Shown here piece after piece: positions 11,007 through 21,374 of a stretch of DNA of 64,000 bases. How positions within the stretch are numbered: the first letter of the stretch is position 1; each line of letters starts with the position of its first letter. The DNA comes from Rufibacter sp. XAAS-G3-1 (lineage in GTDB: Bacteria; Bacteroidota; Bacteroidia; Cytophagales; Hymenobacteraceae), in the NCBI RefSeq assembly GCF_013623775.1, contig NZ_JABFAM010000007.1:248001-312000 (forward strand), read 5' to 3'. A model generated the notes under the pieces. That model was not told where the DNA came from, searched no databases, and was given only the letters and a program-made list of their open reading frames with translations. A program made the translations under genes and the position numbers.

Positions 11007-11048
11007 GGAATGCGTAGAGACCAGGCATGCCTGGTCTCTACGCATTCC
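11007..11048. repeat. Perfect 42-bp palindrome
   Basis: GGAATGCGTAGAGACCAGGCA followed at once by its exact reverse complement, centred between 11027 and 11028, with no loop. It lies between repeat modules 1 and 2. Confidence 0.9.
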
Positions 11049-11528: not shown

Positions 11529-12368
11529 TTAAAAAGAGAAATAATCTCCGTCTGCATAGATGCTGATCTTCATGTCCTGCACTTTGATCAATCCCTGGGG
11601 AGTGGTCTGCAAACCCTTGGGTTCTGAAAAATGGATAACCTGGCTGTCGCCTACCACTTTCATGCGGCCGGGGAGCACTACCAGCGCGGTACCTTCATCA
11701 ATGCCCACACAGTCAAAGGAAGGAAAAGCTGCCAAGGCAGAAAATAACCGGGCGTAGCGGCTCCGCTTGATGAAGTGCTGGTCTATGATGACAGAATCCA
11801 GCAAGGCCAGGCCGGGTTTGAATTCTATGTTCTTGTCCCAGAGTTTATCAAAGGTTTCTTTGTAGGTAGTGTCACCCGCCAACTGCTGACCGGTAATCAT
11901 GTACTTACTCATAACGGCCGCCCCCGCACTGGTGCCGGCAATGGTGGCCCCGCCTGCATACGCCGCATGGATGGCAGTATAGACGGGCGAGTTGTGCACT
12001 ACCTGCATGAACCTGTCCTGGCTGCCGCCGGTAATAAAAATCAGTTTGGCCTGCCGCAGGGAATCAAGCCATTTTTTGTTTAGGACAGTGGCCGGTGTGA
12101 AGTTGAAGCAGGTTATTTTGTTTTTGGTGACCGCCTGTAGTTGCTTCTGAATAGCTGCGTATGACTCCACGGGTTCTGCACTGGCCATGGGGAGTACCAC
12201 TATGTAATCTTTTTTCTGCAGCCCAGCGGTTTCCACCATTTCCTTGATCAGGGCCGGGGAGCGTGTGCCACCCCCAATAATGAAGAGGTTTCCCTTAGGG
12301 GACGAAGGTTGCGCCCAAGCCGCTGATGACGTCAGCAGCAGAAAGAAATAAAACAAATATCGTTTCAT
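11529..12368 (-). CDS. Cyanophycinase-like peptidase (S51), exported
   Basis: 279 residues with an N-terminal signal peptide (MKRYLFYFFLLLTSSAAWA|Q). The S51 fold is clear: FIIGGGTRSPAL, TGGSQDRF (Gln117), nucleophile elbow AGTSAGAAVMS (Ser147), IDQHFIKRSRYARL (His198 with the Arg cluster) and GIDEGTALVV (Glu225). These match the Ser-His-Glu triad and the DQHFxxRxRxxRL motif of cyanophycinases, which release beta-Asp-Arg dipeptides from cyanophycin. Isoaspartyl or peptidase-E-like specificity cannot be excluded. It is the last gene of the seven-gene minus-strand set. A 186-bp gap holding a palindrome separates it from the isoaspartyl peptidase gene, so it may have lower or separate expression. 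Confidence 0.9.
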   Translation of the reverse strand: MKRYLFYFFLLLTSSAAWAQPSSPKGNLFIIGGGTRSPALIKEMVETAGLQKKDYIVVLPMASAEPVESYAAIQKQLQAVTKNKITCFNFTPATVLNKKWLDSLRQAKLIFITGGSQDRFMQVVHNSPVYTAIHAAYAGGATIAGTSAGAAVMSKYMITGQQLAGDTTYKETFDKLWDKNIEFKPGLALLDSVIIDQHFIKRSRYARLFSALAAFPSFDCVGIDEGTALVVLPGRMKVVGDSQVIHFSEPKGLQTTPQGLIKVQDMKISIYADGDYFSF

Positions 12369-12466
12369 AATAGGGAGGTTAAGGTTGACCTAGATCTCTT
12401 GTGATTAGAAGCTTTCAGAGAAAACCAGAGGAAGGGATTTGCGGCCGAATGGTATTTCAAGATGGC

Positions 12467-12505
12467 CGTTTTAGGCTTGTTTTGCCATAAACAGACCTAA
12501 AACAG
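12467..12505. repeat. Palindrome family P, copy 8
   Basis: CGTTTTAGGCTTGTTTTG and ATAAACAGACCTAAAACAG. It lies within the gene set, between the isoaspartyl peptidase and the exported cyanophycinase homologue. Confidence 0.75.
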
Positions 12506-12554
12506 CTATTCAGGAAGGTTAAGCATTCAAACTGGGCTCTAACGTTTAAGAAGG

Positions 12555-13634
12555 CTACTCTTTGTAAATTTTGACCTCAATTTTGCCGTCTGCCGTGATG
12601 GTGCCGCGGTACATGCCTTCGGTGTTGAAAGGAGTGGCTACCCGGCCATTTTTATCCAAGGCGATCAATCCGCCGTCGCCACCCAGTTTGCCCACTTTGT
12701 CAAGCACCTGTTGGGAAGCATCGGCCACGGAAAGGTTCTTGTATTCCATGAGGGCCGAGATGTCATGGGCCACCACGCTTCTGATGTAGAACTCACCCCA
12801 ACCCGTGCAGGAAATGCCCACGGTCTGGTTGTTGGCGTACGTGCCCGCGCCAATAATGGGGGCATCGCCTACGCGGCCGTACTTTTTGTTTGTCATCCCG
12901 CCGGTAGAGGTGCCCGCCGCCAGGTTGCCCCGGTTGTCAAGGGCCACGGCACCTACGGTTCCAAATTTGTTGTCTTTGTTGAGAATGCCCATTTTAAGCG
13001 CCGTTTTGCCGTCATGGTCCAGCTGACTTTTGGTGGAGTCTTCCTGAATGGCTTTCTGCAGTCCTTCCCAACGCGACTCGGTAAAGAAATAGGCAGGGGC
13101 CACAATTTCCAGCCCGGCTTCCTTGGCGAATTTCTCGGCCCCTGGCCCCACCATCATCACGTGCTCAGACTTTTCCATGACCGCCCGGGCCGCACTGATT
13201 GGGTTACGCACATTTGTGACACCCGCCACCGCGCCGGCCCCCAGGGTTTTCCCGTCCATGATGGAGGCGTCCAGCTCGTTTTTGCCATCATGGGTGAAAA
13301 CGGCTCCTTTTCCGGCATTAAACAGGGGAGAGTCTTCCAGCACATGAATGGTGGCTTCAATGGCGTCCAAGCTGCTTTTTCCTTGTTTCAAGAGGCTATA
13401 CCCTGCCTGCAGCGCTTGGGTAAGCGCAGCGGTGTACGCCGCCTCTTTCTCTGGGGTCATGTCCTTTTTCAGGATTGTACCTGCCCCGCCATGGATCACC
13501 AGCACGTACTTGGTTGTGTCTGAGGCAGCCGTAGTGCCAGTGGAAGTTTGCTCGTTGTTGGTTTTGGATGTGCAGGAGGTAGCCAACAGGAAAGCCAAGG
13601 CTGCCCACCAACTGTTTTTCAAAGTGAAGTGCAT
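12555..13634 (-). CDS. Isoaspartyl peptidase / plant-type L-asparaginase, lipoprotein
   Basis: 359 residues of the Ntn-hydrolase family T2. The precursor self-cleaves before the catalytic Thr, here Thr226 in NKFGTVGAVALD, followed by GNLAAGTSTGGMTNK and the substrate loop RVGDAPIIGAGTYA. Other family segments are VIHGGAGT, FNAGKGAVF and ELDASIMDG. The N-terminus is a lipoprotein signal (LLATSC, Cys21), which predicts a membrane-anchored envelope protein. Family members hydrolyse beta-aspartyl dipeptides, including beta-Asp-Arg from cyanophycin. Start chosen at 13634: it creates the lipobox and leaves 17 nt from the upstream stop, whereas the longer frame (13703) would overlap that gene. Confidence 0.93.
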   Translation of the reverse strand: MHFTLKNSWWAALAFLLATSCTSKTNNEQTSTGTTAASDTTKYVLVIHGGAGTILKKDMTPEKEAAYTAALTQALQAGYSLLKQGKSSLDAIEATIHVLEDSPLFNAGKGAVFTHDGKNELDASIMDGKTLGAGAVAGVTNVRNPISAARAVMEKSEHVMMVGPGAEKFAKEAGLEIVAPAYFFTESRWEGLQKAIQEDSTKSQLDHDGKTALKMGILNKDNKFGTVGAVALDNRGNLAAGTSTGGMTNKKYGRVGDAPIIGAGTYANNQTVGISCTGWGEFYIRSVVAHDISALMEYKNLSVADASQQVLDKVGKLGGDGGLIALDKNGRVATPFNTEGMYRGTITADGKIEVKIYKE

Positions 13635-13651
13635 GTGTGTGATTAAAGTTA

Positions 13652-14710
13652 TTATTGGTCTTTTTTGTGTAATTGCCCGTTTTCTACCCACCACCAGTAC
13701 CATTTGCCGCCGGCGGCGGAGCTTGGGTGGAACGTATCAACATTGAACTGGCCGCTGCCCGTGTCAGAGGCGGTAATCTCATAGACGGCAAGCGCCTGTT
13801 CGTTGCGTTTCCAGAGTAACGGTTTCCCTTTTTCTACCAGTTCGGGAGCTTTGGCGTCATTGGGGAGGAGGAAATAGGCTTTGCTGCTGCCAAATGCCTG
13901 CGCCATCCCTTGCTGGTCAATACAAACGGCGGTACGCTCATCGGCGGCTATGCCCTGGGCGGCAACGTTCCAGTCCTTCTTGATTCTTGCCAGAAAAGCC
14001 ACGTGCCTACCTTCGCGGGTGCGGGCCAGGTAGTGCTGGTCGGTGATGATATTGCGGAGGAAAGGGGCCTGCACAAAATCATTGTTATACAGCGTGATGG
14101 TACTATGGTACGGGTCGGCCAGGGCGGTGGTAGAGATAGAACTCCCGCTTTCGCCGCTGTAATAGAAGCCTCCCATAATGGCGCAGCCTGCGCTGGTTCC
14201 GCCCACGGGTGCTTTCTTGGTTTGCAGTAAGTAATTGATGGCCTCCTGGGTTTTGGTGCCCCGCCACAGGTTCATGTACTTAGACTGGTCACCCCCGGCA
14301 ATGAACAGCATCTCGGCATTTCTGATAATGCGGGCCACGGTGTCATTGTTGGCCAGGTCGCGGGTGTCAATCTTAAGGGTTTCCACGGATTTGACGGTGC
14401 CCAAGCCTGCAATGAACGGGTTATAGGCATTGGTGCCGGTCACCCTAATCACCACTACGTTGCCGCCGCCGCTTCGCTGGATCATCCATTTAAAAGCAGA
14501 TTCCACATCTTTGCCGCCCCCCATTAAGACCAAGCCCCCCGTCACCGGGGTTTTGACGTCGGTAGAGTCGCCCACTATCCCGAGGGAGGCTGGTCTAACT
14601 GTGCTGGAAGGGGTGGGAGGAAGCGGTGTTGGTTGTGGCAGGGGGGTGGCTTTGCAGCCCCAGAGACCCAGCGCACTCAATGAGAATGAAAGCCAGAAAA
14701 TATATTTCAT
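13652..14710 (-). CDS. Cyanophycinase-like peptidase (S51), lipoprotein
   Basis: 352 residues. A lipoprotein signal (LSALGLWGCK, Cys19) and a Pro-rich linker precede the S51 domain: LVLMGGGKDVESAF, FIAGGDQSKYM (Gln142), VGGTSAGCAIMGG (Ser173), ITDQHYLARTREGRH (His226) and IAADERTAVCID (Glu258). It is more like the CphE/CphI-type secreted cyanophycinases than the gene at 11529, and the two paralogues share little outside the motifs. About 70 residues after the core carry an extra domain ending in Trp-rich KWYWWWVENGQ. It is transcribed after the SusD gene (51-nt gap) and before the isoaspartyl peptidase (17-nt gap). Likely surface or periplasmic polymer cleavage. Confidence 0.9.
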   Translation of the reverse strand: MKYIFWLSFSLSALGLWGCKATPLPQPTPLPPTPSSTVRPASLGIVGDSTDVKTPVTGGLVLMGGGKDVESAFKWMIQRSGGGNVVVIRVTGTNAYNPFIAGLGTVKSVETLKIDTRDLANNDTVARIIRNAEMLFIAGGDQSKYMNLWRGTKTQEAINYLLQTKKAPVGGTSAGCAIMGGFYYSGESGSSISTTALADPYHSTITLYNNDFVQAPFLRNIITDQHYLARTREGRHVAFLARIKKDWNVAAQGIAADERTAVCIDQQGMAQAFGSSKAYFLLPNDAKAPELVEKGKPLLWKRNEQALAVYEITASDTGSGQFNVDTFHPSSAAGGKWYWWWVENGQLHKKDQ

Positions 14711-14761
14711 ATACAGAAAGTAAAAACGCTGCCCTACGCAGGTAAGACAGCGTTCTATAGC

Positions 14762-16165
14762 TTAGTATTTAGGGTTTTGGATGATGTTCTTGTTTACGGA
14801 TATCTCCAGGGCTGGAATAGGGAAGGAGTACTGGGCCTGCGTAGGCTCCAGGCGCACCGCCCCCGAGGTATTGATGGCATCAGCGGGCAGCCTTTCCACC
14901 GGAAGATTTCTTCTCTTGAGGTCAAAGAAGCGGTGCCCTTCAAATGCCAGTTCCTTAAAACGCTCGGTGTACACTGCGCTGATCAAGGCCTCCTTGGAAG
15001 CAAAGGCCATAGGGGTATACCCGGTAATTCTGGCTGTGCGCAAGGCATTCAGGTCATTGGCGCCTTCGGCTAATCCGCCGGCGGTTTCTGCCCGGGCCTC
15101 TGCCCTTATAAGGTACATTTCACCGGTTCTGAATAATTTGATGTCGGCCAGGCCTGGGGCAGATGCCGTTCCTCCAATGTATTTGTTTACTAAATAAGTA
15201 GATTTACCAGCACCCCGGTTCGCATCAGATTTGATATAGGGCGCATAGCGTACATCATTGTCCGCGTCAAACGAGTTGATGAGCTTGAAGGCCGGGGCAA
15301 ACAAGACAATACTCCCGTTTTGGCGGAAGAAGAAATCCCCGATGCGGGCATCACCCACCACCCGTTTCAGTTTCCAGATCACCTCAGCTTCGTTGGCATC
15401 TGTCCAGATGCCGGGGAACTGGGCGCGGGTGGCCAGGGGAGTCGCTTGGATCACTTCCGTGGAGTAGGTAATGGCATCGGGCCAGTTCTTCTCGTACAAC
15501 GCCACCCGGGCCTGTATGGCCGCAACCCCGGTTTTGGTGATTCTGGTTTTGTCATTGAAAGAAGCCGGGATCAGGGCCTTGGCCGCTATCAAATCCGCTT
15601 TCGCGTTGTCAATCACCGCCTTGAACGTATCTCTGCCCGGTGTGCCAATGACAGAAACCTTCATATAAGGCACCCCTAACGCTTCTGGTTCATAGGAAGC
15701 CGCATAGGCACGCAGCAGTTCAAAGTGGGAGTAGGCCCTAAGGGCAAGAAGTTCACCTTGATAGCGGTCTTTCAAGGCTTGTTCTGCGGCAGGAACGGTT
15801 ACCTGATCCAGAGCGGCTAATACCCGGTTTACGCGATCAATGGTGGTATAATATTGGCCCCAGGCCGAGGTCACGGAGCCGCTACCGGCGTTATACAGCC
15901 AACGGTGGGCGTCTGTGTTGCTCACGTTATTCTCAGTGGGCAGCATGACCTCGTCTGAAACGGTGGCGTTGCTGGAAATAAGGGTGTAGTCCAGTACCGC
16001 GTAGGCTCCCAGTAAACCCATGTTCAGGTCATTGATGTTACGGAAGGCCTTGGAAGGGTCAATGCTATCTGAGGGGGCAAGGTCTAATTTGTCACACGCT
16101 AAAGAAGAGGTAGCTAACGCGAGCAGAAAAACGGATCTTTTAATAGAGGTAGGAAACATGGCCAT
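14762..16165 (-). CDS. SusD/RagB family nutrient-binding lipoprotein
   Basis: 467 residues. A lipoprotein signal ends at ATSSLACDKLD, and the acidic Cys-Asp-Lys-Leu-Asp start fits surface export. Typical SusD features follow: an N-terminal helical TPR-like scaffold (YTTIDRVNRVLAALDQ, LLALRAYSHFELLRAYA), TGEMYLIRAEARAE and the C-terminal AFEGHRFFDLKRR, ending in NIIQNPKY. It acts as the lid of the SusC barrel and captures substrate. Its start is 5 nt after the SusC stop, so the two are co-expressed. The ligand is inferred from the downstream hydrolases. Confidence 0.95.
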   Translation of the reverse strand: MAMFPTSIKRSVFLLALATSSLACDKLDLAPSDSIDPSKAFRNINDLNMGLLGAYAVLDYTLISSNATVSDEVMLPTENNVSNTDAHRWLYNAGSGSVTSAWGQYYTTIDRVNRVLAALDQVTVPAAEQALKDRYQGELLALRAYSHFELLRAYAASYEPEALGVPYMKVSVIGTPGRDTFKAVIDNAKADLIAAKALIPASFNDKTRITKTGVAAIQARVALYEKNWPDAITYSTEVIQATPLATRAQFPGIWTDANEAEVIWKLKRVVGDARIGDFFFRQNGSIVLFAPAFKLINSFDADNDVRYAPYIKSDANRGAGKSTYLVNKYIGGTASAPGLADIKLFRTGEMYLIRAEARAETAGGLAEGANDLNALRTARITGYTPMAFASKEALISAVYTERFKELAFEGHRFFDLKRRNLPVERLPADAINTSGAVRLEPTQAQYSFPIPALEISVNKNIIQNPKY

Positions 16166-16170
16166 GGAAG

Positions 16171-19100
16171 TTAAAAGTTGATGTTAAGACCTGCCGTATA
16201 GGTTCTGGCCGCCGGGTACTGGAACCGGCCCGAAACGCCGCTGTTCTCCGGATCCAGTCCGCGCCAATCAGTCCAGGTGTAGAGGTTCTGGGCTTGCAGC
16301 AGCACTCTTACCCCGCGTACCACGCGTAGAGTCTCAATAAGTGAAGCCGGTAGCGTATAGCCCACGTTCACATGGCGCAGCCGCACGAAAGAGGCGTCCT
16401 GGATATCTTTGGAGGTAAAGTTGCGCGGAACGTCTATCCGTTGCAGAGTGGCGTTGTCGCCGGGTTTCTTCCAACGGTCTTCCAGCATCCTGATAGACTG
16501 GTTACTGGTCATGTAGCGTTGGTTCTCGTTGTAGAAGTCCTCGTTGTTCCACCGCATCACGTCAGAGACAAAGGTGAACAGGATGTCGGCGGTAATGCCT
16601 TTCCAGCTAAAGCCTGAGGTAACCCCGCCGGTGAGGGTAGGGTACAGACTACCGTGGCCGGTTACGCTTTGGGTATTTACATTATAGGTGGTGGTAATGG
16701 TGCCATCTGGGTTATAGTACTGCGCTTCTCCCGTCTCCGGATTCACCCCTGCCCATTTGGGGGCGTAGTACGTGCCATAGGGCATCCCTACTTTCAGGAT
16801 ACGGGTATCTCCGTCTGGCACGTTGTCCAGGCCGTTGCCCAGGTCAAGGATCACGTTTTTGTTGTATGCTCCATTGACACCCAACGTCCAGGTGAACGGC
16901 CCGTTGCTGATGACCTCGCCCCGCACGTCTACTTCCACCCCACGGTTTCTCATTTTACCAGTGCTTAGCGATAGGGAGCTAAATCCAGAGGTAGCCGACA
17001 AAGGTTGGTTCACAAACATGTTACGGGTGATCTTGTTGTAGAAATCGGCCATGATGCGGAGGCGGCTGTTCTGGAAAAGCCCCAGGTCAAAGCCAACGTT
17101 GAACTCATCAATATATTCCCAGTCAAACTCTGGGTTTCCGGCGGCAACGGGCCGTAAAGCGGCCTGCCCGCCGTAAGTGGTGTTGGCCGCGAAAGTGGCA
17201 AGGTAAAGGAAGTCGCCCCCAAACGGGCTGGCGGTGGTTCCGTAGCTGGCTCTCAGGCGCAATTCATTCACCAGCGCAACGGTGTTCAGGAAATTCTCTT
17301 CTTTCACGTTCCAGTTGGCGCCTACGGAGTAGAACCCGTGCCACCGGTTTTTCTCTGGCACTTTGGTGGAACCATCATAGCGGTAGCTGGCAGTGAGGGT
17401 GTATTTGTCATTAAAGGTATATCGGCCCACGCCCATGAAAGACATCAGGGCACTTTCGGTTCTGCCACCGCCTAAACCCGGCAGGAACGTTGCACTGCCT
17501 CGGGTTATCCCTGCCGGGGTTTCCGGTAGGCGGGCGTCAACCCCGAAGCCGGTGTAATTGAAAGCGCGGTAGTTGTCATACACGTACTCAAAGTAGCCCG
17601 AGGTCTCAAAGTCATGCCGGTCTATGGTCTTGGAGAACGTAAGGCCAGAGGTGGAAATCAGGCCGAAGTTTCGGCGCAGGCCCTCCTCAAAGCGCCCCTT
17701 CCCGCCCAGCGTGTTGGAGTTGCTTCTGGAACCATAGTAGGAATCTGGGTTGATGTACACCTGATCAGTGGAACTGCGGTAATCTACCCCGGCCCGGGTA
17801 GAAGCCACCAGGCCTGGCAGAATGATGTACCTCAGGTTCACGCCCAGAATGGTTTTGATCTGGTCTGTCTCGCTGGAGGAGTTCTGCAGCCGCTCAAGAC
17901 CCAGCGTGCCTTCCCTCAAATCTAACACGGGAAACGCCTTGTTGCCAGGCAGAATCATGGTGCCGTCGGGGGCATAGGGGTATTCATACGGCAGCGCATA
18001 ATACACCGAAGCCATGGAAGTACCCACCCCGGTGCCGCCTTCCCCTTCGGTAAAGCTTGAGCTGGAGTAACCCAGAGAAAGGTTGACGTTCCCGGAAAAC
18101 TTCTCTGAGTTGAAGTCTACGTTGCTTCGCAAGGTGTAACGTTCCAGACCCGTACGGCGGGCAATCCCTTCCTGGTCATAATAGTTGAGGGAGTTGTAGA
18201 AACGGATGTTGTCGTTCCCGCCGCTGATGCTTACCTGGTGTTCCTGAAACTTACTCCGCTGGAAGAAAAGGTCGCGCCAATCTGTATTAATGCCCCTCAA
18301 GCTGTCCAGGATAAAGTCTGAGCGGAGTCTCTGCTCTGGGGTTTTTGTGGCGTAGGCCGGGTTTAAGGAAGAGTGAGTCCAGCCAGGGCCTATGTTCCTC
18401 CCAATTTCCAAGCCTACCTCTTCCTCAAAACGGAGGCGCTGCTCGGCATCCATCATAATAAAGTTAGGTGAGGTGAGGTCAGAGAAGCCAAACTGGGTAT
18501 TGTAGTTGACGCTTATCTTGCCCGTATCCCCTTTCTTGGTGGTAATCACCACCACTCCGTTAGAACCTCTTGACCCGTACAAGGCTTTGGCAGAGGCATC
18601 CCGCAGAACAGTGACCGTCTCAATGTCATTGGGGTTGATGCTTTGGAAATAACTGGCTTCAATAGGAATACCATCCATCACGTACAAAGGAGCAGAGCTG
18701 CCGTTAATAGTGCCTATTCCCCTAATGGTGACGGTGGCACTGCTGCCCGGTTGGCCCGAAGAGGCAATCACGCTCATGCCCGGTACGCGGCCCTGCAGAA
18801 TCTGGTCAAGCGAAGCCACCGGCACTTGGTTGATGCTTTCTGACGTGACTACGGATGCTGCGCTAGGCGAGCGGTCTCTGGCGTAGTTGGTGTAGCCGGT
18901 AACGGTAACTTCCTGTAATAATTTAGTGTCTGCTTTTAAGGCAATGTTGATATTGGTTTTACCGGCTAGGGGAATCACTTGGGTGATATACCCAATAAAC
19001 GTGAATTCCAGGCTGCTGGCGGTAGACGGGACAGAGAGGTTGTAGTTGCCGTTGCCATCGGTGGAGGTTCCTACGGTAGACCCGGAGACCCGCACTGAAA

Positions 19101-19539
19101 CACCTGGCAACGGAGAGCCTTCCTCGTCCCGCACCTGGCCGCGCACCACCAGATCTTGGGCCGCCGCCTCTGCCGCAGCCGGGTAGATCACCACCAAACT
19201 GTTTTCCTTCAGTTCATAGGTAAGGGCGGTTTTCGCCAGCACCGTTCGCATGATCTCGTCCAGATAAGCCTCTTGCACGTTGATGGAGAGCTTTTTGTCG
19301 GCCGGCACCGTATTGTGGCTGTAAACGAAACGGTAATCGCTCTGGTGCTCTACCTCCTTCAGTAACTTTTTGATACTGACGTTGGAGAGCTTCAGGCTAA
19401 TTTTCTGTTGCGCGAAACTGCCCGCACTTACCTGCAGGCACAGCACAAGTAGGAAAAAGGAAGTTAGTTTCATGGCAAGTACTATTCGCCCAGGCAAGGC
19501 GCGCTTGCCCAAGTGTTCCAAAAACACAAAGATTTCCAT
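16171..19539 (-). CDS. SusC/RagA TonB-linked outer membrane transporter with STN domain
   Basis: 1122 residues. An N-terminal extension and signal peptide (MKLTSFFLLVLCLQVSAGSFAQ) lead into an STN signalling domain (about 45-120, ISLKLSNVSIKKLLKEVEHQ), a carboxypeptidase-regulatory-like domain (about 130-215, VRGQVRDEEGSPLPGVSVRV), the plug (about 225-335, SLDQILQGRVPGM to DASAKALYGSRGSNG) and the beta barrel ending in aromatic INF. It imports substrate with TonB energy. The STN domain is the part that contacts FecR, so transport and induction are linked to the sigma/anti-sigma genes just upstream. RagAB homologues import oligopeptides, which fits a peptide-polymer substrate. An internal start at 19473 would give only the signal peptide; the longer form is usual in this family. 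Confidence 0.96.
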   Translation of the reverse strand: MEIFVFLEHLGKRALPGRIVLAMKLTSFFLLVLCLQVSAGSFAQQKISLKLSNVSIKKLLKEVEHQSDYRFVYSHNTVPADKKLSINVQEAYLDEIMRTVLAKTALTYELKENSLVVIYPAAAEAAAQDLVVRGQVRDEEGSPLPGVSVRVSGSTVGTSTDGNGNYNLSVPSTASSLEFTFIGYITQVIPLAGKTNINIALKADTKLLQEVTVTGYTNYARDRSPSAASVVTSESINQVPVASLDQILQGRVPGMSVIASSGQPGSSATVTIRGIGTINGSSAPLYVMDGIPIEASYFQSINPNDIETVTVLRDASAKALYGSRGSNGVVVITTKKGDTGKISVNYNTQFGFSDLTSPNFIMMDAEQRLRFEEEVGLEIGRNIGPGWTHSSLNPAYATKTPEQRLRSDFILDSLRGINTDWRDLFFQRSKFQEHQVSISGGNDNIRFYNSLNYYDQEGIARRTGLERYTLRSNVDFNSEKFSGNVNLSLGYSSSSFTEGEGGTGVGTSMASVYYALPYEYPYAPDGTMILPGNKAFPVLDLREGTLGLERLQNSSSETDQIKTILGVNLRYIILPGLVASTRAGVDYRSSTDQVYINPDSYYGSRSNSNTLGGKGRFEEGLRRNFGLISTSGLTFSKTIDRHDFETSGYFEYVYDNYRAFNYTGFGVDARLPETPAGITRGSATFLPGLGGGRTESALMSFMGVGRYTFNDKYTLTASYRYDGSTKVPEKNRWHGFYSVGANWNVKEENFLNTVALVNELRLRASYGTTASPFGGDFLYLATFAANTTYGGQAALRPVAAGNPEFDWEYIDEFNVGFDLGLFQNSRLRIMADFYNKITRNMFVNQPLSATSGFSSLSLSTGKMRNRGVEVDVRGEVISNGPFTWTLGVNGAYNKNVILDLGNGLDNVPDGDTRILKVGMPYGTYYAPKWAGVNPETGEAQYYNPDGTITTTYNVNTQSVTGHGSLYPTLTGGVTSGFSWKGITADILFTFVSDVMRWNNEDFYNENQRYMTSNQSIRMLEDRWKKPGDNATLQRIDVPRNFTSKDIQDASFVRLRHVNVGYTLPASLIETLRVVRGVRVLLQAQNLYTWTDWRGLDPENSGVSGRFQYPAARTYTAGLNINF

Positions 19540-19636
19540 AAAGTAGGGTTGTTAGTTTAGGTGGTTACTGTTTGAGTTTGCCTTTAAATTGGAAGGATCT
19601 GAACAAGGGGACGTGTGCCAGCACTTCCCCGCTTTC

Positions 19637-20746
19637 TTATTTACTTATCATGATTTTATCTTGCATCACTTTGAAAGAGAAAGGGTAGGAAAGCTGTAAT
19701 GCCTCCAGAGCCCGGACTACGTTTTCATTCTCGAAAACCCCAGAATAGCGGTATTCCTTCACTTCCTGGTCTGTAAACTCAATGTTGATGCCGTACCATG
19801 TCTCCAGCTTTTGGGCAATTTGTGACAGAGGTTCATTGTCTATGTCCAGCCTGGTTCTAGCCCAGGCGGTCTCTTGCGGGTTGGTTTTGGCGGATGTAAG
19901 CGGCAGGACATTGAATGAAACGGCGGATGTTTTTTGGGAAGGGTTGCCGGACAGACTGCTGATGAGCTTTTGATTGGGTTTGAGGATGACGGGTTTGCCG
20001 GGCTGGGCGGCAGAACTAACTTCTACGCGGCCGGTGAGCAGAGACGTCTCTGTGGCAGTATCTCCGGCATGGGCCCTTAAATTGAAAACGGTACCCAACA
20101 CCTTCACTTGGGTGAACAAGGCATGAACCACGAAGGGGCGAGCTGGATCATGCCTTACATCAAAGAAGGCCTCGCCGGTGAGCCAGACTTCCCGGTTTTT
20201 CTGGTTGAAGGCAGGTTGGAGCGTGAGGGTGCTGCTTTGGCGGAGCGTAACCACAGACCCGTCTGCCAACACCACCGTTTTGCGGGACGCGGTTCCCGCC
20301 TGAATGCGTAGGTTCTCTTTGGATGGGAATGGTTGCTGCGCCAGCAACGAGGGAGCAGGCTTGAAAAAGAATAGATAGGCTAGTACCACAACGGCCAGGC
20401 TGGCAGCAAGCCCTACGGCGTATCTGAAGAAATGGGTAGTAGGAGCAATCCGGTTTTCCTTTTCCCCCCGGTTACGTTGTGCAGGTTGCCCCAAAAGTTG
20501 CTTAAAATGCTCAGACTGTAGAATGCCCGCCCGCAGTTGGCTGAGTTGCTCCAGACGGTTGCCCTGGCGGGCGCTCAGGAGATAAATCAGCTTTCTGGCT
20601 TCTTCTATATCTTCGGCCCGGGCCGGGTTAGCCTTGATCCAATCTTCCCAGAATAATTGATCTGCCATGTTCACCCCCAGGCAGTAATGCTGAAAGGTTT
20701 CCAGGCAAACTAATTCTTCAACTGAAATCTGGGAAGATACAAGCAT
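19637..20746 (-). CDS. FecR family anti-sigma factor
   Basis: 369 residues. A cytoplasmic N-terminal part (LFWEDWIKANPARAEDIEEA), one transmembrane helix (about 108-128), then a periplasmic FecR domain (RKTVVLADGSVVTLRQSSTL, GEAFFDVRHDPARPFVVH, VKVLGTVFNLRAH) and a DUF4974-like C-terminus (DIDNEPLSQIAQKLETWYGI, YRYSGVFEN). It holds the ECF sigma factor until the STN domain of the loaded SusC transporter signals. It lies 76 nt downstream of the sigma gene and 97 nt upstream of susC. Confidence 0.95.
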   Translation of the reverse strand: MLVSSQISVEELVCLETFQHYCLGVNMADQLFWEDWIKANPARAEDIEEARKLIYLLSARQGNRLEQLSQLRAGILQSEHFKQLLGQPAQRNRGEKENRIAPTTHFFRYAVGLAASLAVVVLAYLFFFKPAPSLLAQQPFPSKENLRIQAGTASRKTVVLADGSVVTLRQSSTLTLQPAFNQKNREVWLTGEAFFDVRHDPARPFVVHALFTQVKVLGTVFNLRAHAGDTATETSLLTGRVEVSSAAQPGKPVILKPNQKLISSLSGNPSQKTSAVSFNVLPLTSAKTNPQETAWARTRLDIDNEPLSQIAQKLETWYGINIEFTDQEVKEYRYSGVFENENVVRALEALQLSYPFSFKVMQDKIMISK

Positions 20747-20822
20747 TGTCTATCGCTTTTACAGAGTAGACGGCGTTTGCTTGGTTTTTTCCTAAGGAAA
20801 TAGTGAGATATTTATGAAAATA

Positions 20823-21374
20823 TTAGTTTAAAATTCTCCGCAGCACCCTAATAGCATCATAAATGGTGTTGTAGGCCGTTTTTACGGATTGGGAAGTACG
20901 TTGGGCAATCTGTTCATAGCTTAGCCCGTCAAAGAATTTAAGCTGGATCAACTCCATCTGCCGGGGAGTGAGTTTTTGCAGGGCAAGCTGTAGTTTTTGT
21001 TTTACCTCCACGTCCTGCTGTAGCCTGATGATGATCTCCTCATACGGCATCTCATCCCATTCTTCGTCAAGAAGCTTTTTCTGCACCGCTACATCTAACT
21101 GACTACGATGGCGCACCTCATCTGTGATGGTATGCTTGAGGGTGGTAAAGAGGTAATTCCTGACGTTGTCTACCGGGTGAAGGTGGGCTCTCTTGTCCCA
21201 GAGGTTGAGGAAGATCTGGTTAACGCAGTCTTTGACCAACTCATCATCGGCGGTGGTCTTCAGCCCAAACCTGAGCAGATGAAAGTAGAAAGAGTTGTAT
21301 AGGCTGAATAGTGCCTGCTTATCGCCTTGGCACATGGCTATCCAATTTTGTTTGTACTCTTCTTCAGCAGTCAT
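20823..21374 (-). CDS. ECF RNA polymerase sigma-70 factor (FecI/Bacteroides expansion type)
   Basis: 183 residues with region 2 (ALFSLYNSFYFHLLRFG, VKDCVNQIFLNLWDKR, VRNYLFTTLKHTITDEVR) and region 4 (LTPRQMELIQLKFFDGLSYE, the helix-turn-helix QIAQRTSQSVKTAYNT). It is the first gene of the set and should direct transcription of the susCD-hydrolase genes. Just before the start codon lies GTATAC-CAA-GTATAC (21376-21390), a small symmetrical motif of unknown meaning. Confidence 0.95.
   Translation of the reverse strand: MTAEEEYKQNWIAMCQGDKQALFSLYNSFYFHLLRFGLKTTADDELVKDCVNQIFLNLWDKRAHLHPVDNVRNYLFTTLKHTITDEVRHRSQLDVAVQKKLLDEEWDEMPYEEIIIRLQQDVEVKQKLQLALQKLTPRQMELIQLKFFDGLSYEQIAQRTSQSVKTAYNTIYDAIRVLRRILN

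Follow-up and report, generated by a model that had tools for sequence, protein, structure and literature searches.

Gene organization of the run

The window analysed here, a stretch of 64,000 nucleotides from Rufibacter sp. XAAS-G3-1 (assembly GCF_013623775.1, contig NZ_JABFAM010000007.1, positions 248,001-312,000), carries at 11529-21374 a run of seven minus-strand genes that may serve the utilization of the storage polymer cyanophycin. A SusC/SusD pair is preceded in this run by an extracytoplasmic function (ECF) sigma factor and a FecR-type anti-sigma factor, and followed by two proteins of peptidase family S51 (S51A and S51B) with an isoaspartyl aminopeptidase of family T2 between them (Table 1). 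An earlier interpretation made from the letters alone, hereafter the sequence-only reading, had claimed seven such genes; all seven open reading frames (ORFs) are present where it had placed them, and every family assignment holds in Pfam and NCBIfam. As in other Sus-type loci, susC and susD are adjacent and putative degrading enzymes lie within the same run. The ECF sigma factor, FecR and STN-bearing receptor make up a complete FecI/FecR/STN set, from which signalling of this type is predicted, the STN match itself being marginal.

Table 1. Genes of the run, in order of their position in the run.
Gene	Position in window	Strand	Matches and remarks
ECF sigma factor (FecI-like), first in run	20823..21374	-	Sigma70_r2/r4; Sig70_bacteroi1 90.5 bits, under cut-off 126.4
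FecR-type anti-sigma factor	19637..20746	-	FecR and FecR_C
SusC/RagA TonB-dependent transporter, N-terminal STN	16171..19539	-	TIGR04056 738 bits; STN 28.9 bits, cut-off 28.4
SusD-family lipoprotein	14762..16165	-	SusD_RagB and SusD-like_3; clade of 29 sampled members, all adjoining S51/T2
S51A, S51-fold lipoprotein, own subfamily	13652..14710	-	Peptidase_S51; TIGR02069 69.9 bits, below cut-off
T2, IaaA-type isoaspartyl aminopeptidase lipoprotein	12555..13634 (ORF opens 13703)	-	Asparaginase_2 400 bits
S51B, exported cyanophycinase homologue, signal peptide I	11529..12368	-	Peptidase_S51; TIGR02069 140.3 bits

The gaps between genes measure 5 bases for SusC-SusD, 51 for SusD-S51A and 17 for S51A-T2 with T2 starting at 13634, a lipoprotein start and better placed than the opening of the ORF; the widest gap, 186 bases, precedes S51B. 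Lipobox cysteines are present in SusD, S51A (LWGC) and T2 (ATSC), and S51B has an ordinary signal peptide, as judged from the translations with a crude sequence pattern. The same pattern, applied to related loci, calls S51A a lipoprotein in 31 of 32, gives S51B an ordinary signal in 20 of 26 and finds T2 exported in 23 of 27, the last count including one apparently miscalled protein (L151).

Family assignment of the hydrolases and the transporter

The sequence-only reading had spoken of two cyanophycinases, which holds for S51B and is too strong for S51A. The cyanophycinase equivalog of NCBIfam, TIGR02069, has a curated cut-off of 126.6 bits; S51B lies above it, as do 10/10 orthologues from other loci, whereas S51A and ten relatives (49.9-88.6 bits) all remain below it (0/11). 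On sequence grounds, S51A is an S51-fold protein of its own subfamily, filed outside cyanophycinase. Its AlphaFold model (mean predicted local distance difference test score 87.3, built with 27 sequences) best matches, in the PDB, pseudo-CphB 7uqv and the cyanophycinases 7uqw and 3en0, with template modelling scores by target of 0.77-0.81, against lower values of 0.57-0.66 for PepE-type proteins; 7uqv is the top fold match of S51A and also heads the PDB matches of S51B.

In Synechocystis CphB, Law et al. (2009) reportedly found Ser132, His174 and Glu201 to be critical, with Gln101, Asp172, Gln173, Arg178, Arg180 and Arg183 in the pocket. Alignment confirms the catalytic Ser, His and Glu that the sequence-only reading had seen in both S51 enzymes, and all nine residues are kept in each. 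The two enzymes resemble the CphB/CphE group (TIGR02069; PDB 3en0, 7uqw) in fold, Ser-His-Glu and pocket residues; S51A differs from it as a lipoprotein with about 70 residues beyond the model-matching part, and in its score.

The closest solved relative of T2 is Escherichia coli IaaA/EcAIII (PDB 2zak), at 328 bits against 128 bits for the best glycosylasparaginase, and the two share the Ntn-hydrolase type with an invariant GTVG at the nucleophile. Enzymes of the IaaA type cleave beta-Asp dipeptides. Because its 371 bits against the beta-aspartyl-peptidase equivalog NF007589 fall short of the cut-off of 567, T2 is classed by similarity as an IaaA relative and not as an assigned orthologue of that family. 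The nucleophile Thr226 is confirmed as the processing Thr with the translation start at 13634 and is invariant in seven aligned sequences. Unlike IaaA, T2 bears predicted export signals in loci of the window's type, as a lipoprotein or with a signal peptide.

RagAB of Porphyromonas gingivalis is a SusCD-type peptide importer, with which, to our knowledge, no S51 or T2 enzymes are associated. Among solved structures, the window's SusC is nearest to RagA, by 43 bits. The same holds for one of three control SusC proteins whose surroundings, as far as read, contain neither S51 nor T2, while the SusC of a flavobacterial locus discussed below (L094) is not RagA-best. The match is thus nonspecific, and RagA similarity was dropped as a sign of peptide import; kinship with RagAB, a system cited by the sequence-only reading, is no proof.

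Recurrence and linkage across Bacteroidota

A scan with the S51A alignment gave at least 493 relatives, the best 80 of which were kept and automatically annotated. SusC and SusD lie in the same-strand run at 25 of these 80 loci, comprising 15 with T2 and a second S51, five with T2 only, four with a second S51 only and one with neither. At 50 of the best 80, no SusCD, T2 or second S51 stands in the run; L191 is counted as unlinked, its SusCD-T2-S51B run lying on the opposite strand. The remaining five are L126 and L133, where the overlap rule called no S51A ORF (L126 still has sigma, FecR, SusC, SusD and T2), the short contigs L129 and L139, and L178, which has a second S51 with SusCD outside the run by the rule used. 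A second set of 34 loci, gathered by S51A similarity and including the window, has SusC and SusD in the run at nine, seven of them with T2 and a second S51; it overlaps the first set (identical rows L079/L116, L086/L163, L088/L165 and L089/L188), so the counts are not additive.

The synteny search that the sequence-only reading had proposed supports its core inference. Daejeonella (L112), Pedobacter (L115, L116) and Sphingobacterium (L143) have the full order, from ECF sigma factor, FecR, STN-bearing SusC and SusD through the S51 lipoprotein and exported IaaA-type T2 to the exported S51, while Mucilaginibacter, Flavisolibacter, Niabella, Chitinophaga and Flavobacterium have shorter versions. 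The run of an uncultured Mucilaginibacter (L117) starts with FecR at the contig end, FecR is undetected in Flavisolibacter (L113), sigma and FecR are undetected in Niabella (L145, L146), and S51B is missing from five Chitinophaga loci (L128, L130, L131, L135, L136). Since the run recurs in other genera, a chance neighbourhood is excluded.

The linkage is specific and appears from the other end as well. In a reciprocal search, which starts independently of S51, the window's SusD was compared with 395 genomes of the phylum, with at most four candidates scored per genome. All four SusD relatives at 57-67% identity adjoin T2 or S51 (L079, L080, L081, L233), against none of the next eight by score, at 36-47% identity, in the stretches read. 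In a quickly built tree that compares 67 SusD proteins (those below 380 residues left out, one support value, most rows found via S51A), the window's SusD falls in a clade whose 29 members all adjoin S51 or T2 (support 100 in the Shimodaira-Hasegawa-like approximate likelihood ratio test, SH-aLRT). In Flavobacteriaceae, a separate SusD clade (L091, L094, L151, L190, L191) accompanies the same enzymes; the flavobacterial SusD proteins of G229 and G083, which are more distant from the window's SusD, are absent among the matches listed for it.

In an equally quick S51A tree (rows above 600 residues left out, one support value), the clade around the window has 37 rows (SH-aLRT 99), of which 27 are linked, eight unlinked and two on short contigs. 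In the genomes of seven of the eight unlinked members, no SusD is found at E<=1e-60 (0/7) and no close S51B (one match, 33% identity), whereas both positive controls match in each search. The S51A proteins of seven Mucilaginibacter loci (L114, L118, L119, L120, L122, L124, L125) share 63-66% identity with the window's S51A over the best segment, and their runs contain neither SusCD nor T2 nor a second S51; six of these genomes (all but L124) were searched for SusD at E<=1e-60, with none found.

A role of the hydrolases as housekeeping enzymes of the envelope, or as defence peptidases (against aspartyl-nucleotide antibiotics, for instance), that stand by chance behind an unrelated SusCD is extremely unlikely in light of these distributions. 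The 50 unlinked loci would fit such a role, and some S51 peptidases confer microcin C resistance (PMC9239234; this and the other sources given by PMC number are cited from excerpts). Against it stand the constant association of the window's SusD clade, including in the S51-independent draw, and the second SusD lineage joined to the same enzymes.

A protein with a PKD domain directly follows S51B in eight loci of Chitinophagaceae type and Sphingobacterium (L081, L137, L138, L140, L141, L143, L145, L146); that of L081, the only one scanned, also matches DUF5050, and the protein is possibly an extra surface binding protein. A pattern-based scan for viral carriage returned 67 matching stretches in viral contigs, none of which is a relative.

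Arginine genes and alternative layouts

The window's run holds no arginine gene and no gene for an inner-membrane transporter, and the one CtlX (citrulline hydrolase) of the Rufibacter genome lies on the same contig about 60 kb past the window edge. In three relatives, however, a YfcC/DcuC-like permease and an arginine-deiminase-like or DDAH-like gene join the run (L091, L094, L092). CtlX is present in the runs of L091 and L094 (454 and 447 bits, cut-off 334), which group with Flavobacterium loci in the SusD tree; the YfcC-like permease of L092, from the same order as the window organism, scores 372 bits, under a cut-off of 500. Such arginine-catabolism genes point to arginine. Since the T2 proteins of all three loci are without signal peptide, two layouts exist: the window type, which would split the dipeptide in the envelope, and the flavobacterial type, which would split it in the cytoplasm.

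Another cyanophycinase-bearing arrangement, here called type II, is found at L105-L109 (G321, G317, G064, G290, G188). It comprises S51B, a YfcC-like permease, a TonB receptor of about 820 residues beside which SusD is undetected, a PorV-like protein, an S51 with a tail of the type IX secretion system (T9SS) and an M14 peptidase, together with a conserved protein of about 920 residues, for which the single member scanned gave no Pfam match. The T9SS-tailed S51 occurs in the sister loci L101 and L105, which suggests that cutting can begin outside the cell.

Distribution, origin and the organism's own cyanophycin genes

No S51A orthologue was found in 15 genomes of the same genus (best E 2.3e-10), and an S51A of the window's kind occurs in one of 21 same-family genomes (G028), standing alone without SusCD. 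Likewise, no SusD orthologue was found in the same-genus genomes, and the SusD matches listed for both groups do not exceed 39% identity, except for two partial ones of about 120 residues at 48-49%. Because orthologues are missing in the genus and the nearest relatives of the window's S51A and SusD lie, by the trees, in Sphingobacteriaceae and Chitinophagaceae, horizontal gain or wide loss is suggested. No trace of recently acquired foreign DNA is seen in the base composition, with 2-kb bins over the run at 0.484-0.547 GC compared with 0.475-0.564 in the whole window.

The Rufibacter genome (G000) has cyanophycin genes of its own, namely cphA and, next to it, an intracellular cphB, at C36:193683-197078 (L015, 5648-9226), in addition to three further S51 and two further T2 genes. 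This cphB is without one of the nine residues, reading DTHF for DQHF. Among the 28 locus genomes tested, cphA is present in 10 (Rufibacter and 9/27 others), with no match in the other 18. These genes raise a variant of the cyanophycin interpretation in which the locus recycles the organism's own polymer from lysed sister cells and does not feed on cyanobacteria. The variant would agree with the adjacent cphA-cphB pair and with the ten cphA-bearing genomes, yet it is very unlikely, given the 18 genomes with no cphA match, the placement of locus and cphA on different contigs, and the separate ECF sigma and anti-sigma genes with which the locus opens.

Proposed function and mechanism

The family assignment, the synteny from both ends and the arginine-catabolism genes in some relatives together support a cyanophycin locus, and we put at about 0.74 the probability that the run is a Sus-type locus for the capture and extracytoplasmic digestion of external cyanophycin. 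The polymer, (beta-Asp-Arg)n, would come from the stores of other bacteria or from lysed kin. SusD and SusC would catch soluble pieces at the surface for TonB-driven import; S51A, lying within the envelope or on it, would together with the exported S51B cut the polyaspartate backbone to beta-Asp-Arg; and the membrane-anchored T2 may then split beta-Asp-Arg into Asp and Arg outside the cytoplasm, both to be taken up by ordinary amino-acid permeases. Substrate in SusC would signal through STN to FecR, freeing the ECF sigma factor to switch the run on.

A bolder version is doubtful. It holds that S51A is a new envelope lipoprotein depolymerase, a counterpart of SusG, which cuts cyanophycin at the surface for a dedicated SusCD while the exported IaaA completes the digestion outside the cytoplasm, leaving free Asp and Arg, and that this machine has been assembled at least twice in Bacteroidota from different SusCD lineages.

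Several findings weigh against the cyanophycin interpretation itself. S51A stays under the cyanophycinase cut-off, at least half of the S51A genes lie in runs devoid of SusCD (50 of the best 80), and the window's run has neither arginine nor inner-membrane transporter genes. Because Rufibacter and nine of 27 other locus genomes carry cphA, the locus is not necessarily dedicated to scavenging. The nine-residue motif was rejected as proof of substrate, and, because pseudo-CphB 7uqv, reportedly inactive, retains all nine residues, it would be necessary at most. Nor does the more frequent retention of the motif in SusCD-linked S51A (27/34, versus 26/78 unlinked) count as support: the difference depends on descent, and among six independent pairs none agrees with it and at most one opposes it.

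Some of these points would equally suit a locus that scavenges general isoaspartyl peptides or other beta-linked aspartyl polymers, such as aged protein or Asp-Lys variants, a reading that we consider unlikely. SusCD systems can import peptides, as RagAB does; S51A is outside the cyanophycinase equivalog; and 7uqv, assuming its inactivity, suggests that S51 look-alikes need not act on cyanophycin. IaaA enzymes are moreover promiscuous (PMC10206079), so T2 would be compatible with any isoaspartyl peptide. However, S51B-type enzymes pass the cyanophycinase cut-off in 11 of 11 cases, arginine-specific genes stand in the run of three relatives, and two S51 enzymes with one T2 would fit a polymer better than dipeptides. 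The isoaspartyl-polymer SusCD locus of the sequence-only reading is upheld in outline by the three lines of evidence above, with three weak points: a locus of this kind already in print, the sub-cut-off score of S51A and the kinship with RagAB.

Relation to described systems

The abstract of Ben Hania et al. (2017) is said to describe a cyanophycin transport complex homologous to those of typical polysaccharide utilization loci. As cited in PMC10206079, that paper reports a "cyanophycin utilization locus" in a Bacteroidetes; the sequence-only reading had known of no described SusCD-linked one. The novelty is reduced accordingly, and the window's locus is a variant of an idea already proposed; what is new is the breadth of occurrence, the exported dipeptidase, the FecI/FecR/STN control, the unassigned lipoprotein S51 subfamily and the presence of these enzymes beside a second SusD lineage.

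That published locus, from Salinivirga cyanobacteriivorans L21-Spi-D4, likewise combines cyanophycinase genes, an isoaspartyl dipeptidase and a transporter, but the dipeptidase is, as cited in the excerpt, IadA and not an exported IaaA. Only one of the two S51 proteins of Salinivirga bears a Por (T9SS) domain (PMC6243061); going by the description only, the pair resembles that of the type II loci. A cyanophycin-scavenging cluster is named for another member of Bacteroidota, Flammeovirga pacifica WPAGA1 (PMC10206079), and is similar, as far as the name goes, in joining cyanophycinase and isoaspartyl dipeptidase. According to the same source, cyanophycinase clusters with IaaA in 30 of the 32 genomes that have both and are without cphA1, and the isoaspartyl dipeptidases of Firmicutes and Bacteroidota are so far undiscovered. 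Outside Bacteroidota, a TonB receptor beside a cyanophycinase gene in Citromicrobium was proposed earlier, from genome context, as a cyanophycin importer (PMC3400609); the excerpts on it mention one cyanophycinase gene and no SusD. The passages available from PMC11573002, PMC12590107, PMC9723704 and PMC10687191 do not describe such a locus, and no description of a SusCD-S51-T2 locus was found among the matches listed in the open literature, a scope that leaves most subscription papers outside.

Other features near the run

Between S51B and the next gene lies a perfect 19-pair hairpin (11007-11048, minus strand). Elsewhere in the genome, contigs C14 and C2 hold near-copies of its 32-base core, with two and three mismatches, and a reversed control gave none. 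The hairpin may be a terminator or a small palindrome of dispersed type. A search for the Bacteroidota promoter pattern, with what we take to be its consensus, gave one match in the window, away from the locus, with 1.5 expected by chance; sigma-70 and terminator scans of the window were near chance level (6 vs 8.4 and 17 vs 14.2, respectively).

Implications

The locus suggests a candidate SusD ligand other than a glycan and brings up a lipoprotein S51 subfamily yet to be characterised, and the SusD clade may serve as a marker for candidate cyanophycin users in metagenomes. In cphA-bearing genomes with the full locus, the exported IaaA relative would supply an isoaspartyl dipeptidase of the sort described as undiscovered in Bacteroidota (PMC10206079). 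If the cyanophycin interpretation is true, SusCD machinery serves a nitrogen-rich storage polymer that is not a glycan, and cyanophycin turnover outside cyanobacteria would become directly testable, since Pedobacter, Chitinophaga, Sphingobacterium and Niabella have cultured members.

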